A stretch of DNA of 47,818 bases from Deltaproteobacteria bacterium (GTDB lineage Bacteria > SAR324 > NAC60-12): the NCBI GenBank assembly GCA_002683785.1, contig NYUB01000030.1, forward strand, positions 59,066-106,883, given 5' to 3'. Shown piece after piece: positions 3,008-47,818 of the stretch. The notes below the pieces were generated by a model, which ran no database searches, was not told the origin of the DNA, and saw only the letters and a program-made list of their open reading frames with translations. Position 1 is the stretch's first letter, and the number at the start of each line of letters is the position of its first letter. The position numbers and the translations under genes were made by a program.

Positions 3008-3024
3008 TGAGACTTATAGTCTCA
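3008..3024. promoter_or_regulatory. Palindromic operator candidate upstream of the IclR gene
   Basis: TGAGACTTATAGTCTCA is an inverted repeat with perfect 7-bp arms around a 3-bp centre. It lies 14 bp before the first possible start of the IclR gene and encloses TATAGT (3015-3020), a good -10 hexamer, so a bound protein would block transcription. IclR-family regulators bind palindromes of about this size and are usually autoregulated. A similar site lies at the xsc promoter at 45849. Binding by this particular IclR protein is inferred. Confidence 0.55.
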
Positions 3025-3037
3025 TTAATGATGGTTT

Positions 3038-3862
3038 TTGGTGAAAAATGATGATGAGAAAGCAACTTTACTAAAATTAATTTCCGTGGAAACAGATCAA
3101 AAGCACAAAGGTTCCCACCTAACCCGTGCTCTCGCAGTAATTGAAAAAGTGGCATTATCTGAAAGGCCATTGACACCAACAGAAATCAATAACGAACTTC
3201 AACTGCCTAAAGCAACCATTCATCGGCTTTGCCAGTTTCTTGAAGATGAGCAGTTTCTTCAGCGAGATTTAGAAGCAAAAAGACTGATTCCTGGTCTACG
3301 ACTCAGGCAGATAGCCTTAGGGGTTTTCCGAAATGATCAATTCCGTTTAGAACGAACGGTGGTTCTTCAGAACCTCTCAGAAGACATTGGAGAAACCTGC
3401 AATATCTCAGTGCCTGATGGAATGCAGATGCGATATGTTGACCGTGCGGAGAGCCATTGGCCACTGAGAATGCAGCTTCCTGTTGGAACTAAAGTCCCAT
3501 TGTACTGTACTTCAAGTGGGAAATTGTATCTAAGTACCCTTCAAGAAGGGAAGCTTGATAAACTAATTGGGAGTTTCAGGCTTGAAGCCCATACTTCAAA
3601 CACCTTGACTTCTCAACAGGCATTGAAACAGGAACTGGATCAAATCCGTAAAGAAGGTGTAGGAACGGATAGAGAAGAATTTCTTGAAGGGATGGTCTGT
3701 GTTGCAGTACCCATTTTAGATCAGCAGCAAAGATTTTTTGCAACACTATCTTTTCATGCACCTAGTAGTCGTCTTTCATTGGAAGAGGGTCTTGGATATG
3801 TTCCCCGACTAAGGGAGGCATCAGCCGAATTGAGCAGTCTGCTGAAGGAAGAGAGTCACTAA
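3038..3862 (+). CDS. IclR-family transcriptional regulator
   Basis: This 274-aa protein has an N-terminal winged helix (about residues 28-90, with LTRALAVIEKVA and LPKATIHRLCQFL) and a C-terminal IclR effector domain (GETCNISVPDG, RMQLPVGTKVPLYCTSSGK, and GVCVAVPI-like GMVCVAVPIL). The family are dimeric or tetrameric ligand-responsive regulators of catabolic genes. The start is TTG at 3038 or GTG at 3041; no in-frame ATG is near and no strong ribosome-binding site is visible. It is divergent from the transhydrogenase and 14 nt upstream of the asparaginase gene, which is probably co-transcribed. The effector is unknown. Candidate operators are the palindrome in its own leader and the related site at xsc. 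Confidence 0.9.
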   Translation: MVKNDDEKATLLKLISVETDQKHKGSHLTRALAVIEKVALSERPLTPTEINNELQLPKATIHRLCQFLEDEQFLQRDLEAKRLIPGLRLRQIALGVFRNDQFRLERTVVLQNLSEDIGETCNISVPDGMQMRYVDRAESHWPLRMQLPVGTKVPLYCTSSGKLYLSTLQEGKLDKLIGSFRLEAHTSNTLTSQQALKQELDQIRKEGVGTDREEFLEGMVCVAVPILDQQQRFFATLSFHAPSSRLSLEEGLGYVPRLREASAELSSLLKEESH

Positions 3863-3876
3863 ACCTAGAAAGAGTT

Positions 3877-4878
3877 ATGAAGAATCATTTCCGGGACCCT
3901 ATATGCGTTGAAGTAACAAGAGCAGGTAGCATAGAAAGTCAACACCAGCTTTTTGCAGTGCTGATGCAACCTGATGGTAAAATTAAAGAGTGTTGGGGAG
4001 ATCCTGAAATGTTTGTCTTTCCACGTTCGGCAGTCAAGCCGCTTCAGGCGATGGCCTTAGTGAGTTCAGGTGCAGTGGAAAAGTACGACCTTAGTTCCCA
4101 GGAAATTGCACTGGCCTGTGCTTCCCATGGAGGTGAACCGGTTCATGTTGAGGTAGTAAAAAATTGGCTCTCAAAAGTTGGCTTGAATCCTTCCGATCTG
4201 GAATGCGGATTTCACTGGCCTTCTCATCAGGAATCAGCCCATAAAATGATTGCTGAAGGATATCTCCCTCAATCGGTCCATAACAATTGTTCAGGCAAGC
4301 ATTCTGGATTTTTAACTTTAGCCCTTCAAATGGGTCATACGCATGAGCATTATGTCCAACCCGATCATCCTGTTCAGCTTCGGATTCAAGAGATCCTGGA
4401 AAAGGCATGTGATGTTGATCTATCAAAATCTGAACGAGCAATTGACGGTTGTTCGGTTCCCACTTGGTCTATTCCGCTCAAAAACTTAGCATTGGGAATG
4501 GCTCGTTGGGGAACAGGGGTGATGCTTGATCCAAAGCTTTCCCGGGCAGCAGAAGTCATATCAAAAGCTATGGCCCTTCATCCATACATGGTAGCAGGAC
4601 AAGGACGATGCTGTACCAGAGTTTTAAGGCATTTTCAGGGTAAAGTACTGGTGAAAACTGGTGCTGAAGGTGTGTATTGTGCAGTATTCCCAGAACTTGG
4701 ACTAGGGTTGGCCCTGAAGTGTCTTGATGGCCAAAAAAGAGCCTCGGAAGCCGCACTTGTGGCTCTCATACGTAAACTGGGTATGGTTGATGAGCAAGAT
4801 ACCGAAATTCTTTCTCCCAGTATTATAAGAAACCATAATCAGATACTCGTTGGAGGCATAAGAGTGGTTGTCCCTTAA
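3877..4878 (+). CDS. L-asparaginase II family protein (Rhizobium AnsA type)
   Basis: At 333 aa the protein matches the length of the asparaginase II family (PF06089), which is unrelated to the classical E. coli AnsA/AnsB fold. Recognisable strings are FPRSAVKPLQAMAL near the N terminus, ALACASHGGEP, NNCSGKHSGFL and DGCSVPTWSIPL. These carry the Ser, Lys and Cys residues conserved in the family. The expected reaction is hydrolysis of L-asparagine to aspartate and ammonia in the cytoplasm. It starts 14 nt after the IclR gene on the same strand, so it may share its control. No signal peptide is seen. Confidence 0.87.
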   Translation: MKNHFRDPICVEVTRAGSIESQHQLFAVLMQPDGKIKECWGDPEMFVFPRSAVKPLQAMALVSSGAVEKYDLSSQEIALACASHGGEPVHVEVVKNWLSKVGLNPSDLECGFHWPSHQESAHKMIAEGYLPQSVHNNCSGKHSGFLTLALQMGHTHEHYVQPDHPVQLRIQEILEKACDVDLSKSERAIDGCSVPTWSIPLKNLALGMARWGTGVMLDPKLSRAAEVISKAMALHPYMVAGQGRCCTRVLRHFQGKVLVKTGAEGVYCAVFPELGLGLALKCLDGQKRASEAALVALIRKLGMVDEQDTEILSPSIIRNHNQILVGGIRVVVP

Positions 4879-5009: not shown

Positions 5010-5879
5010 TCAGGGGCAGGAATTCTCTACCAGGCTTTGATAAAGTTCAGGACGTCGATCACGAAAAACTTCCCAGGCCTGTCGGGTTTTGGAGATTTCT
5101 TCCAAGTCGAATGTTGAGGCAAGGACTGATTCTTCATCTCTTCCGGCTTGAGTCACGATTTCTCCAGTGGGCCCGCAAATGAAGGAATTGCCGTAAAAGG
5201 TGATACTGGATTCATTTCCGTCTTCGTGTCCAATTCTGTTGGCTGCAGCAACAGGGACCAGATTCGCTGAGGCGTGCCCCTGCATCACTCTTTGCCAATG
5301 ACTACTTGTGTCCATGGAAGGAGCCTGAGGCTCAGAGCCTATCGCGGTTGGATAGAGCAGTATTTCCGCACCCTGAAGGACCATAGCCCTTGCAGCTTCT
5401 GGAAACCATTGGTCCCAGCAGATTCCAACCCCCAATTTGCCAAATCTCGTGTCCCAGACCTTAAAACCTGTGTTACCAGGGGTAAAATAGTATTTTTCCT
5501 GATACCCGGGCCCGTCAGGGATATGAGACTTTCGGTAAATCCCCTGGCAACTTCCATCTGCATCCAGCAAAGCCATTGAGTTGTAAAAAACATTGGTAGC
5601 GGATTCAAAAAAACTAAGTGGAAGTATGACTTCCAATTCCTTTGCCAATGCAGAAAACCTTTCCAGCAGTGGATTCCCATCCGCTGGTTGAGTCCATTGC
5701 AAATAATCGGGATTCTGATCTTTACAGAAATAAGGACGTTCAAAAAGCTCCTGAAGCAGGATGATCTTGGCACCCTTAGATGCTGCGTCCCGGACCAAAT
5801 ATTCTCCACGATCTTGATTTTCTAGAGGCTCAGCACTACACGTCATTTGGGTGATTGCAAGGGTGACGGTCCGGCTCAT
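5010..5879 (-). CDS. aguB: N-carbamoylputrescine amidase
   Basis: This 289-aa nitrilase-superfamily hydrolase shows the Glu-Lys-Cys catalytic triad: Glu in LLQELFE, Lys in YRKSHIPDGPGYQEKYYF and Cys in GVGICWDQWFPEAAR. The long stretch around YQEKYYFTPGNTGF is typical of N-carbamoylputrescine amidases. It converts N-carbamoylputrescine to putrescine, CO2 and ammonia. It lies 31 nt downstream of aguA on the same strand, which completes the agmatine deiminase route and makes the assignment firm. The gene converges with the asparaginase gene. Confidence 0.95.
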   Translation of the reverse strand: MSRTVTLAITQMTCSAEPLENQDRGEYLVRDAASKGAKIILLQELFERPYFCKDQNPDYLQWTQPADGNPLLERFSALAKELEVILPLSFFESATNVFYNSMALLDADGSCQGIYRKSHIPDGPGYQEKYYFTPGNTGFKVWDTRFGKLGVGICWDQWFPEAARAMVLQGAEILLYPTAIGSEPQAPSMDTSSHWQRVMQGHASANLVPVAAANRIGHEDGNESSITFYGNSFICGPTGEIVTQAGRDEESVLASTFDLEEISKTRQAWEVFRDRRPELYQSLVENSCP

Positions 5880-5910
5880 GTATTTAAAGGGCGAAAAGTT
5901 TTACAGGGTT

Positions 5911-6939
5911 TTATCCCATTGATGCGACTTTAGGCTGTTGTTGAGTAATGCAGTGGATCCCTCCTCCTCCCATCACGATTTCCTGTGCATCAAGCTGGAT
6001 GATTTTTCGGGAGGGAAAGATTTTTTCAAAAGTGGCTCTTGCACTTTCGTCTCGTTGAGGATCATTGAATGCTGGTATCACGATTCCCTGATTGGGAAGG
6101 TAGAAATTAATGTAGGACTGGGCCAACCGTTCATCCTCTTTCCATCGGGCTTTGGGCTGTTCTACAGTGACGATTTCGAGATTTCGTTCACGGGCATCTT
6201 TGGCATTTTTCAGCCGCAGGAGGTTGTCTTGTAAAACTTCGTAATTTTCATCTTCCGGATCATTGCTGATTAATGCCATGACCGCCCCGGGTTTGATGAA
6301 GCAAGCAAGGTTATCAACGTGACCGTCGGTTTCATCATCCATAAGTCCTTCTCCAAGCCAAAGGATGCTATGGACATTTAAATATTCTCGAAGCAGTTGT
6401 TCAATTTCTTCCTGGTCCAGTTCCGGATTCCGGTTGGGGTGGAGCAGGCACTGTTCTGTCGTGATCAAAGTGCCATCACCATCGACATGAATCGATCCTC
6501 CTTCAAGGACGAAGGTCGCTTTGAAATGTTCAATGTCTGAGTGATTCAAAAGGGCTCTAGCAAAATCAGCATCATCCTCACAGTCGGGATAGTCGGCACC
6601 CCACTGGTTGAATTCCCAATCGATTCCTGCGATTCTCCCTTTACGGTCAATGACAAATGTCGGACCACTATCACGAGTCCAGGAGTCATCTATTGGTAAC
6701 GATATGATTTCGATTTTAGGACCGCACATCATTTGTGCCTCCTCGGCATCCTCTGGATGACACGTCATCTTGACAGGTTCGAACTGGTTGATAGCATGGG
6801 CAACTTCGACATAGGCCTGCTTGGCCTGGTCCATCCTCTCACCCCATGTTTTGATACGACAAGGCCATCCCATCCAGCAGCATTGATGAGGATGCCATTC
6901 TGCAGGCATGTAAAATCCTTGAGAACTGATGCTTCCCAT
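5911..6939 (-). CDS. aguA: Agmatine deiminase
   Basis: This 342-aa member of the peptidyl-arginine-deiminase-like family starts with the typical MPAEWHPHQCCWMGWP. It contains the active-site WTRDSGPTF, the EGGSIHVDGDGTLITTEQCLL and GHVDNLACF segments, and the nucleophilic Cys in GGGGIHCITQQ near the C terminus. It hydrolyses agmatine to N-carbamoylputrescine and ammonia, feeding the adjacent aguB for putrescine synthesis. The track start at 6939 adds a few residues before MPAEW; a start at that Met is also possible. No arginine decarboxylase gene is in the window, so the agmatine source is unknown. Confidence 0.95.
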   Translation of the reverse strand: MGSISSQGFYMPAEWHPHQCCWMGWPCRIKTWGERMDQAKQAYVEVAHAINQFEPVKMTCHPEDAEEAQMMCGPKIEIISLPIDDSWTRDSGPTFVIDRKGRIAGIDWEFNQWGADYPDCEDDADFARALLNHSDIEHFKATFVLEGGSIHVDGDGTLITTEQCLLHPNRNPELDQEEIEQLLREYLNVHSILWLGEGLMDDETDGHVDNLACFIKPGAVMALISNDPEDENYEVLQDNLLRLKNAKDARERNLEIVTVEQPKARWKEDERLAQSYINFYLPNQGIVIPAFNDPQRDESARATFEKIFPSRKIIQLDAQEIVMGGGGIHCITQQQPKVASMG

Positions 6940-45819: not shown

Positions 45820-45848
45820 TTGACAAGATACCCTTAGAATGGCATAAA
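45820..45848 (+). promoter_or_regulatory. Sigma-70-type promoter of xsc
   Basis: TTGACA (45820-45825) is a perfect -35 box, followed by a 17-nt spacer and CATAAA (45843-45848) as a fair -10. It lies 68 nt before the xsc ATG, and the palindrome at 45849 abuts the -10, which points to repressor control at the transcription start. Confidence 0.65.
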
Positions 45849-45865
45849 TGAGATTAGTATTCTCA
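45849..45865. promoter_or_regulatory. Operator candidate at the xsc promoter
   Basis: TGAGATTAGTATTCTCA has 5-bp arms (TGAGA/TCTCA) around seven bases, the same 17-bp frame as the site before the IclR gene, with 13 of 17 positions identical. It abuts the -10 box. A half-site, TGAGACTTA (45871-45879), identical to the left nine bases of the IclR-gene site, follows 22 nt later, two helical turns away. Confidence 0.5.
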
Positions 45866-45915
45866 CCAGATGAGACTTAAAAAATAAAAAAACTCAGAAT
45901 TCAAGGTTTACAGCT

Positions 45916-47688
45916 ATGAAAATGACAACGGAAGAAGCATTCGTCAAAGTGCTCCAGAGGCAGGGAATTGAACATGCTTTTGGAATCATAGGTTCGGCCT
46001 TCATGCCGATTTCCCACTATTTCCCTGAAGCAGGGATCACCTTCTGGGATGTTGGACACGAATGCAACGGGGGTTACATGGCCGATGGTTTTACCCGTTC
46101 GACAGGCAAGATGGCAATGATTATTGCCCAAAATGGACCTGGCATCACCAATTTTGTTACCTGTGTCAAAACCGCCTATTGGAATCATACTCCGATGCTC
46201 CTGGTAACTCCCCAAGCGGCAAACAAGACCATTGGACAAGGGGGATTCCAGGAAGTTGAACAAATGGCAGTCTTCAAGGACATGGTAGGATATCAGGAAG
46301 AAGTTCGTGATCCCTCTCGAACTGCAGAGGTACTGAACCGTGTCATCACCAAGGCTCGTCGGCTTTCTGCTCCTGCACAAATCAATATCCCACGAGATTT
46401 CTGGACTCAAGTCATTGATGTCGAAATTCCAGAAGCTCTTGAATTCGAAATTCCTACAGGAGGAAACGATGCTGTTGCAGAAGCGGCTCAGTTGCTTTCC
46501 AATGCTGATTTTCCTGTGATCCTCAACGGGGCTGGAGTCGTTTTAGGTGGAGCAATAGATGCTTCCAGAAAACTTGCAGAGCGATTGGATGCTCCAGTCT
46601 GCTGCAACTACCAGCACAATGATGCATTTCCCGGTTCACATCCGCTCTATGCTGGGCCTTTAGGATACAATGGATCTAAGGCAGCCATGGAATTGATCAA
46701 CAAGGCCGATGTAGTACTTGCGCTTGGAACACGTCTCAACCCCTTTTCCACCTTGCCGGGTTACAGTCTGGATTATTGGCCGAATTCTGCAAAACTGATT
46801 CAGGTTGATATAAACCCTGAACGCATCGGCTTGACCAAACCGGTTACTGTTGGAATTGCAGGAGATGCTCGAAAAACTGCAGAAGCAATTCTGGAAAAAC
46901 TTTCACCGTCTTCTAGCGCGAGTGTCAGACAGCAAAGACGGGATCTGGTGGCTCAGAAAAAAGCATCTTGGTCTGAAACCCTTTCTTCCATGGATCATGA
47001 AGATGATGATCCTGGTACCACATGGAACGAACGGGCCCGAGAAAATCAACCTACCTACATGTCTCCAAGGATGAGTTGGCGTGCAATCATCAAGGCCCTC
47101 CCGAAAGAGGCGATCATTTCCTCAGATATCGGAAATAATTGTGCAATCGGAAATGCCTATCCAACCTTTGAGGCAGGGAGGAAATATCTGGCTCCGGGGC
47201 TTTTTGGCCCATGTGGCTATGGATTTCCTTCGATCATAGGTGCTAAGATCGGGAATCCTGATACTCCCGTTGTAGGGTTTGCTGGGGATGGTGCTTTTGG
47301 CATATCGATGAATGAGATGACTGCAATAGGAAGGGAAGATTGGCCTGCTATCACCATGATTATTTTCCGAAATTACCAGTGGGGTGCTGAAAAGCGTAAT
47401 ACGACTCTTTGGTATTCAGATAATTTTGTCGGGACTGAACTCGACCTTCAGGTTTCTTATGCAGATATTGCAAAGGCATGCGGGGTCAAAGGGGTCCAGG
47501 CGAAAAGCATGGAGGAACTCACCACGACTCTGGAAACAGCGGTACAAGAACAAATGAATCAGGGAGTGACCACTTTTATTGAAGTCATCCTGAATCAGGA
47601 ACTTGGAGAACCGTTCAGAAGAGATGCAATGAAAACTCCGGTCTCAGTTGCTGGTATTCGGAGAGAAGACATGCGCCCACAGGTATGA
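45916..47688 (+). CDS. xsc: Sulfoacetaldehyde acetyltransferase
   Basis: This 590-aa ThDP enzyme has EEAFVKVLQRQGIEHAFGI at the start, the cofactor Glu in VGHECNGGYMADG, and the central domain IPTGGNDAVAEAAQLL. The C-terminal ThDP/Mg motif is GFAGDGAFGISMNEMTAIG, with N-Y-Q-W-G-A-E following. These strings and the whole length match Xsc rather than acetolactate synthase. It converts sulfoacetaldehyde and phosphate to acetyl phosphate and sulfite, the desulfonation step of taurine degradation. The aminotransferase gene 23 nt downstream would supply sulfoacetaldehyde. Regulation by an IclR-type protein is suggested by the operator-like sites. Confidence 0.94.
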   Translation: MKMTTEEAFVKVLQRQGIEHAFGIIGSAFMPISHYFPEAGITFWDVGHECNGGYMADGFTRSTGKMAMIIAQNGPGITNFVTCVKTAYWNHTPMLLVTPQAANKTIGQGGFQEVEQMAVFKDMVGYQEEVRDPSRTAEVLNRVITKARRLSAPAQINIPRDFWTQVIDVEIPEALEFEIPTGGNDAVAEAAQLLSNADFPVILNGAGVVLGGAIDASRKLAERLDAPVCCNYQHNDAFPGSHPLYAGPLGYNGSKAAMELINKADVVLALGTRLNPFSTLPGYSLDYWPNSAKLIQVDINPERIGLTKPVTVGIAGDARKTAEAILEKLSPSSSASVRQQRRDLVAQKKASWSETLSSMDHEDDDPGTTWNERARENQPTYMSPRMSWRAIIKALPKEAIISSDIGNNCAIGNAYPTFEAGRKYLAPGLFGPCGYGFPSIIGAKIGNPDTPVVGFAGDGAFGISMNEMTAIGREDWPAITMIIFRNYQWGAEKRNTTLWYSDNFVGTELDLQVSYADIAKACGVKGVQAKSMEELTTTLETAVQEQMNQGVTTFIEVILNQELGEPFRRDAMKTPVSVAGIRREDMRPQV

Positions 47689-47711
47689 ATCAAAACTTTA
47701 TTACAGGTAAA

Positions 47712-47818
47712 ATGATGGAAAAAACTGAAATTAGCACACCGGATGCACTTTGGCGTCCAATGACCCAGCATCAAATGATGCGTGGAAAGGATGCTCCCAG
47801 CAAGATCGTTCGTGGAGA
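47712..47818 (+). CDS. Class III aminotransferase, probably taurine:pyruvate, 3'-partial
   Basis: Only the first 35 codons are present (MMEKTEISTPDALWRPMTQH, ending KIVRGE at the window edge). The pattern W-x-P-M-T-Q-H followed by I-V-R-G-E is the usual N-terminal region of class III omega-aminotransferases. Its place directly after xsc suggests taurine:pyruvate aminotransferase, which makes sulfoacetaldehyde and alanine. Either of two adjacent ATGs (47712, 47715) can be the start; ACAGGTAAA precedes them. Confidence 0.6.
   Translation, partial: MMEKTEISTPDALWRPMTQHQMMRGKDAPSKIVRG

Follow-up and report, generated by a model that had tools for sequence, protein, structure and literature searches.

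A regulator of the IclR type is already part of the annotation of C2-sulfonate metabolism. In Ruegeria pomeroyi DSS-3 the isethionate genes follow the order iseJ, iseK, iseL, iseM, iseR, and iseR (SPO2355) is annotated as 'isethionate dissimilation regulator' (PMC4334477). TauR is a regulator of another family, a MocR-type protein that joins a GntR-type DNA-binding domain to an aminotransferase-like domain. It is described as an activator, and its published regulons include OppABCDF transporters (PMC5320631). A third system is that of Cupriavidus necator, where SauR responds to a sulfonate, sulfoacetate, and regulates the sau genes from a position divergent from sauSTU (PMC7057948). The literature that we searched, mostly papers outside subscription, describes no IseR operator and no IclR-type regulator of xsc.

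Here we compare these systems with a locus from SAR324. The window, by which we mean the whole stretch of DNA that was analysed (47,818 nucleotides), belongs to a draft genome of 3.64 Mb that is assembled in 173 contigs. A first-pass annotation had proposed that one operator is common to the promoters of an iclR gene and of xsc. It had also held that the regulators known for this pathway all belong to another family (TauR-type), which the annotated iseR (PMC4334477), of the IclR type by its gene order, contradicts.

Results

The features of the window are collected in Table 1. The IclR protein matches the Pfam models HTH_IclR (40.3 bits, cut-off 22) and IclR_C (136.8 bits, cut-off 24). We doubt the TTG start at 3038, as the protein of the relative G001 begins at the residue that matches GTG 3086. 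Outside the window the xsc operon comprises a tpa-like aminotransferase, alanine dehydrogenase (ald), an acylating sulfoacetaldehyde dehydrogenase (SauS) and a SauT-like acyl-CoA ligase. A gene for a long protein with MORN-like repeats lies downstream of the operon region, also beyond the window (L006:13166-15016).

Table 1. Genes and regulatory elements of the window
Feature	Position	Strand	Remarks
operator palindrome TGAGACTTATAGTCTCA before iclR	3008..3024	.	read; kept before iclR in 9 SAR324 genomes
iclR, IseR-type IclR-family regulator (predicted)	3038..3862	+	HTH_IclR + IclR_C; clade with alphaproteobacterial ise-cluster regulators
promoter-like element of xsc, TTGACA-N17-CATAAA	45820..45848	+	read directly; TTGACA 45820-45825, 17 nt spacer, CATAAA 45843-45848; TTGACA-N17-GATAAA in sister species
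operator palindrome TGAGATTAGTATTCTCA before xsc	45849..45865	.	before xsc in 9/9 iclR-bearing genomes
extra half-site TGAGACTTA at xsc	45871..45879	+	22 bp after first arm
xsc, sulfoacetaldehyde acetyltransferase	45916..47688	+	NCBIfam TIGR03457, 895.7 bits vs cut-off 676.4
tpa-like aminotransferase, start only	47685..47818	+	operon runs on beyond window

The positions and sequences that had been given for both palindromes, the xsc promoter element and the half-site were all correct on reading. The two palindromes have identical arms and agree at 13 of 17 bases; the xsc arms of the window genus have T/A and not C/G as their sixth base. The half-site had been placed two turns past the xsc palindrome, and there it is, 22 bp after the first arm in the two species of the window genus alike. 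It is kept at xsc in relatives, as TGAGACTAA with identical spacing in G001 and as a weaker TGAAA-like sequence, equally spaced, in a second genus, g7. The iclR sites carry no such half-site. A scan for the sigma-70 consensus omits the xsc element, since its rule demands T as the last base of the second hexamer. The '-10 box' that had been claimed at the iclR palindrome did not hold up: a sigma-70-like pair was not found there, and the TATAGT of the window reads AAAAGT in the nearest relative, whose IclR protein is 83% identical. No clear -10 element can be assigned to iclR in the window.

Within the window TGAGA-N7-TCTCA occurs exactly twice, at the iclR and xsc sites, against 0.14 expected; two matches were reached by 3 of 100 shuffled windows. 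The whole genome has five exact matches, against one for the reversed control pattern, and the remaining three, whose core differs, are located at gene ends or between them and were judged to be chance. This single-genome excess is modest and makes the case suggestive, and it is the comparative evidence that is decisive. Matches with one mismatch were not above control genome-wide and, among those inspected, no gene was common to different genomes; the regulon therefore looks small. A loose pattern, YGAGANNNNNNNTCTCR, stayed close to the control level in most genomes, which tells us that bases 6-7 of each arm matter.

Orthologs of the regulator are present in 10 of the 31 genomes of the family. 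The palindrome precedes iclR in all nine SAR324 genomes that have the upstream region on the contig (two or three of these sites show one or two altered bases), and it precedes xsc in each of the nine iclR-bearing genomes that have xsc. Across 16 genomes we counted 14 perfect matches to the strict pattern YGAGACYNNNRGTCTCR. Of these, iclR and xsc are each preceded by six, an Opp-type ABC transporter by one, and one is unexplained; the six genomes without iclR have none. One perfect site, G022:C235:307, stands 561 bp upstream of a gene for an ion channel; it occurs in a single genome and was judged to be chance. The consensus of 19 sites is TGAGACTNNNAGTCTCA; its arms hardly vary, and its centre is free. 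The scan of the genome and its relatives had been suggested by the first-pass annotation as a check; the matches cluster at xsc and iclR and are not chance-like. Conserved sites before both genes across SAR324 genomes support a single common operator, and their conservation at xsc supports the proposed tie between the IclR protein and sulfoacetaldehyde/taurine catabolism. These comparisons indicate that the palindrome is a real, conserved operator of the putative IseR-type IclR regulator, standing in SAR324 before the regulator gene itself and before the xsc operon.

Since draft genomes may miss genes by accident, absence of iclR was judged by synteny, and G030 and G024 were left out as uninformative (contig ends). 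The iclR of genus g7 has mobA and a glutathione-transferase-like gene as neighbours. Over this region the 5-contig assembly of G025 aligns to G017 save for the ~1.09 kb holding iclR. The former iclR-side site of G025 differs from that of G017 at one base, and three arm bases of its xsc site are changed. The same neighbour genes are present without iclR in G021, G011 and G029. The right arm of the xsc site is ruined in G021, and G029 has no recognisable operator before xsc. Upstream of xsc in G011 (L046) the operator is replaced by a differently spaced perfect 18-bp repeat, TGAGAAGCGTTATTCTCA, possibly an altered operator that serves a different regulator. The xsc site is found in 9/9 genomes with iclR and in 0/4 without (Fisher exact 1/715, relatedness ignored). 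The iclR label switches roughly four times over the xsc tree without clustering, with only two of the contrasts on well-supported branches; the apparent joint loss of iclR and the xsc site is to be read as a consistent picture rather than as a test of significance.

Outside SAR324 a protein search returned 21 relatives, 37-50% identical and from alphaproteobacteria or unplaced proteobacteria, all of them linked to a GMC dehydrogenase, to TRAP genes, or to both. Two arrangements were seen. In one the GMC gene is divergent from the TRAP genes, which are followed by iclR, and this equals the iseJ-K-L-M-R order of R. pomeroyi; in the other the GMC gene is divergent from iclR. The SAR324 regulator and the 21 ise-cluster proteins form one clade against 18 other IclR proteins (SH-aLRT 97), and the recognition helix LPK-x-T-[IV]-HRLC is common to most clade members. 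When a matrix was built from SAR324 sites only, its best place was the iseR/iseJ or iseJ/iseK promoter in most of the 21 loci; a search of the alphaproteobacterial loci that required perfect arms of 7 bases immediately ahead of iclR had missed these sites. A site also lies ~130 bp before the tauR-xsc genes of Sulfitobacter aestuariivivens and between iseK and iseJ-xsc in Marinovum algicola, and a clear site near xsc is absent in 12 of 14 alphaproteobacterial genomes.

From its clade and the shared operator, the predicted SAR324 protein is an IseR-type IclR regulator. We use this name and not IseR because in the window the gene is not beside iseJ or iseKLM. Its neighbours in the window and in the sister species are a divergent Fe-ADH gene (1528-2832 in the window) and, downstream, an asparaginase II gene (3877-4878). 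As a sulfoacetaldehyde reductase SarD the Fe-ADH is unsupported (154 bits, cut-off 700). Three ise loci of alphaproteobacteria (L072, L074, L075) likewise have an Fe-ADH relative, ~55% identical, at ~5 kb from the regulator gene. Further along, at 5010-6939, a carbon-nitrogen hydrolase gene adjoins a peptidyl-arginine-deiminase-like gene, the usual pair for agmatine breakdown. The GMC dehydrogenases of SAR324 were rejected as IseJ (39-45% identity, no operator).

A third target may be an Opp-type ABC transporter whose binding protein is of family 5. In G017 and G022 (L013, L016) it is divergent from iclR and shares an intergenic region with it; in G007 the same transporter is unlinked from iclR and has a perfect operator of its own (L110:5049-9543, G007:C9). 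Given the operator at the transporter and the OppABCDF transporters that TauR regulons likewise include (PMC5320631), we regard it as a candidate sulfonate importer. Its predicted membership in the regulon extends only to G007, G017 and G022; the copy in the window genome, 90% identical to that of G007, has no site and was rejected as a member there. The G007 transporter adjoins a 2-aminoethylphosphonate aminotransferase gene. Between two different genera the binding protein is 90% identical (G000:C60:14161-16200, L127, and G007:C9:14681-16753, L126), and the xsc proteins of these genera are ~81% identical. That the binding protein exceeds xsc in identity hints at a transfer between the two.

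Discussion

We think it very probable that the observations as a whole are best explained by an IseR-type IclR repressor that controls both desulfonation and its own gene, would act through the shared operator and would probably be relieved by sulfoacetaldehyde or a C2 sulfonate that is its precursor. The computations show that conserved sites are shared, that the xsc site is lost together with the regulator, and that the protein belongs to the clade; binding, dimer arrangement, repression and effector we infer. The protein would bind the palindrome, with consensus TGAGAC-N5-GTCTCA, before its own gene and likewise the palindrome before the xsc-tpa-ald(-sauS-sauT) operon. The extra half-site there, two turns downstream, would probably admit a second dimer.

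The placement of the sites, at or just past the -10 element, makes repression by blocking RNA polymerase (occlusion or road-block) the most likely outcome. In the window genus the xsc site is directly 3' of the -10 element. In genus g7 it lies ~21 nt past a TTGACT-N17-TATAAA-like pair, and the iclR site ~8 nt past a TTGAGA-N17-TACAAT-like pair. These positions past promoter-like elements in both genera support the earlier suggestion that the sites stand where a repressor would act. Isethionate, taurine and sulfoacetate converge on sulfoacetaldehyde, which is why sulfoacetaldehyde, or one of these C2 sulfonates yielding it, would be the likeliest signal for relief.

The strongest alternative, and in our opinion an unlikely one, is that the IclR protein is an activator, or a dual regulator, at xsc and a repressor at its own gene alone. 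The IclR family does include activators, and in a survey of inducible systems that covers the IclR type 15 of 16 are activators or dual (PMC7057948). However, the xsc site is downstream of the promoter-like element in both genera, not upstream of the -35, an arrangement that suits repression. We think it very improbable that a different regulator owns the sites and controls both iclR and xsc. Binding of the sites by the IclR protein is a prediction, and TauR-type proteins do regulate xsc elsewhere (PMC5320631), but the xsc site is decayed or missing exactly where iclR has been lost, and in alphaproteobacteria too the site goes with the iclR clade, standing there at promoters of the regulator's own cluster. 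That the two palindromes are alike by chance is scarcely credible: the shuffles of the window alone and the one-mismatch counts leave some room for it, but position-specific conservation across two genera and into alphaproteobacteria already contradicts it.

Repression through a shared operator by an IseR-type protein is our preferred reading. There is also a wider one, which we hold tentatively and with somewhat less than even confidence. An ancient IclR regulator and its operator would form a C2-sulfonate regulon parallel to TauR and spanning alphaproteobacteria and SAR324. In SAR324 it would sense sulfoacetaldehyde and control desulfonation whatever the sulfonate, together with the Opp-type (SBP family 5) sulfonate transporter. 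Taurine, isethionate and other sulfonates are important marine currencies of carbon, nitrogen and sulfur, and SAR324 is widespread and poorly understood. It is described as an uncultivated clade (PMC8364033), so that its regulation must be read from sequence. This work provides a specific putative operator for an IclR-type sulfonate regulator, extended from alphaproteobacteria to SAR324, a proposed switch in target, with the xsc operon taking the place of the isethionate genes, and a named candidate for a sulfonate transporter. The operator can also help to pick out additional members of the regulon in metagenomic data.

Among known systems, BhcR and the IclR of Escherichia coli have the two-domain architecture of the SAR324 protein and different target genes. 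BhcR is the best-scoring NCBIfam model for the SAR324 protein (141.6 bits, below the cut-off of 350), and the effector domain aligns with that of E. coli IclR. The sau system resembles the SAR324 locus in that SauS and a SauT-like gene end the xsc operon; SauR differs in its divergent placement. With TauR the SAR324 regulator would share xsc and taurine genes as targets and Opp-type ABC transporters in the regulon (PMC5320631). Unlike TauR, it has IclR domains only, without the GntR-type and aminotransferase-like pair, and its operator is another. The closest counterpart is IseR. The alphaproteobacterial clade-mates of the SAR324 protein sit in the iseJ-K-L-M-R order, a likeness that takes the family of SPO2355 from gene order and not from a direct sequence comparison with the SAR324 protein, and the operator is shared between SAR324 and the IseR-type ise loci. 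The difference is one of position: the SAR324 regulator stands away from iseJ and the TRAP genes, and we propose that it controls xsc-tpa-ald at a distance.
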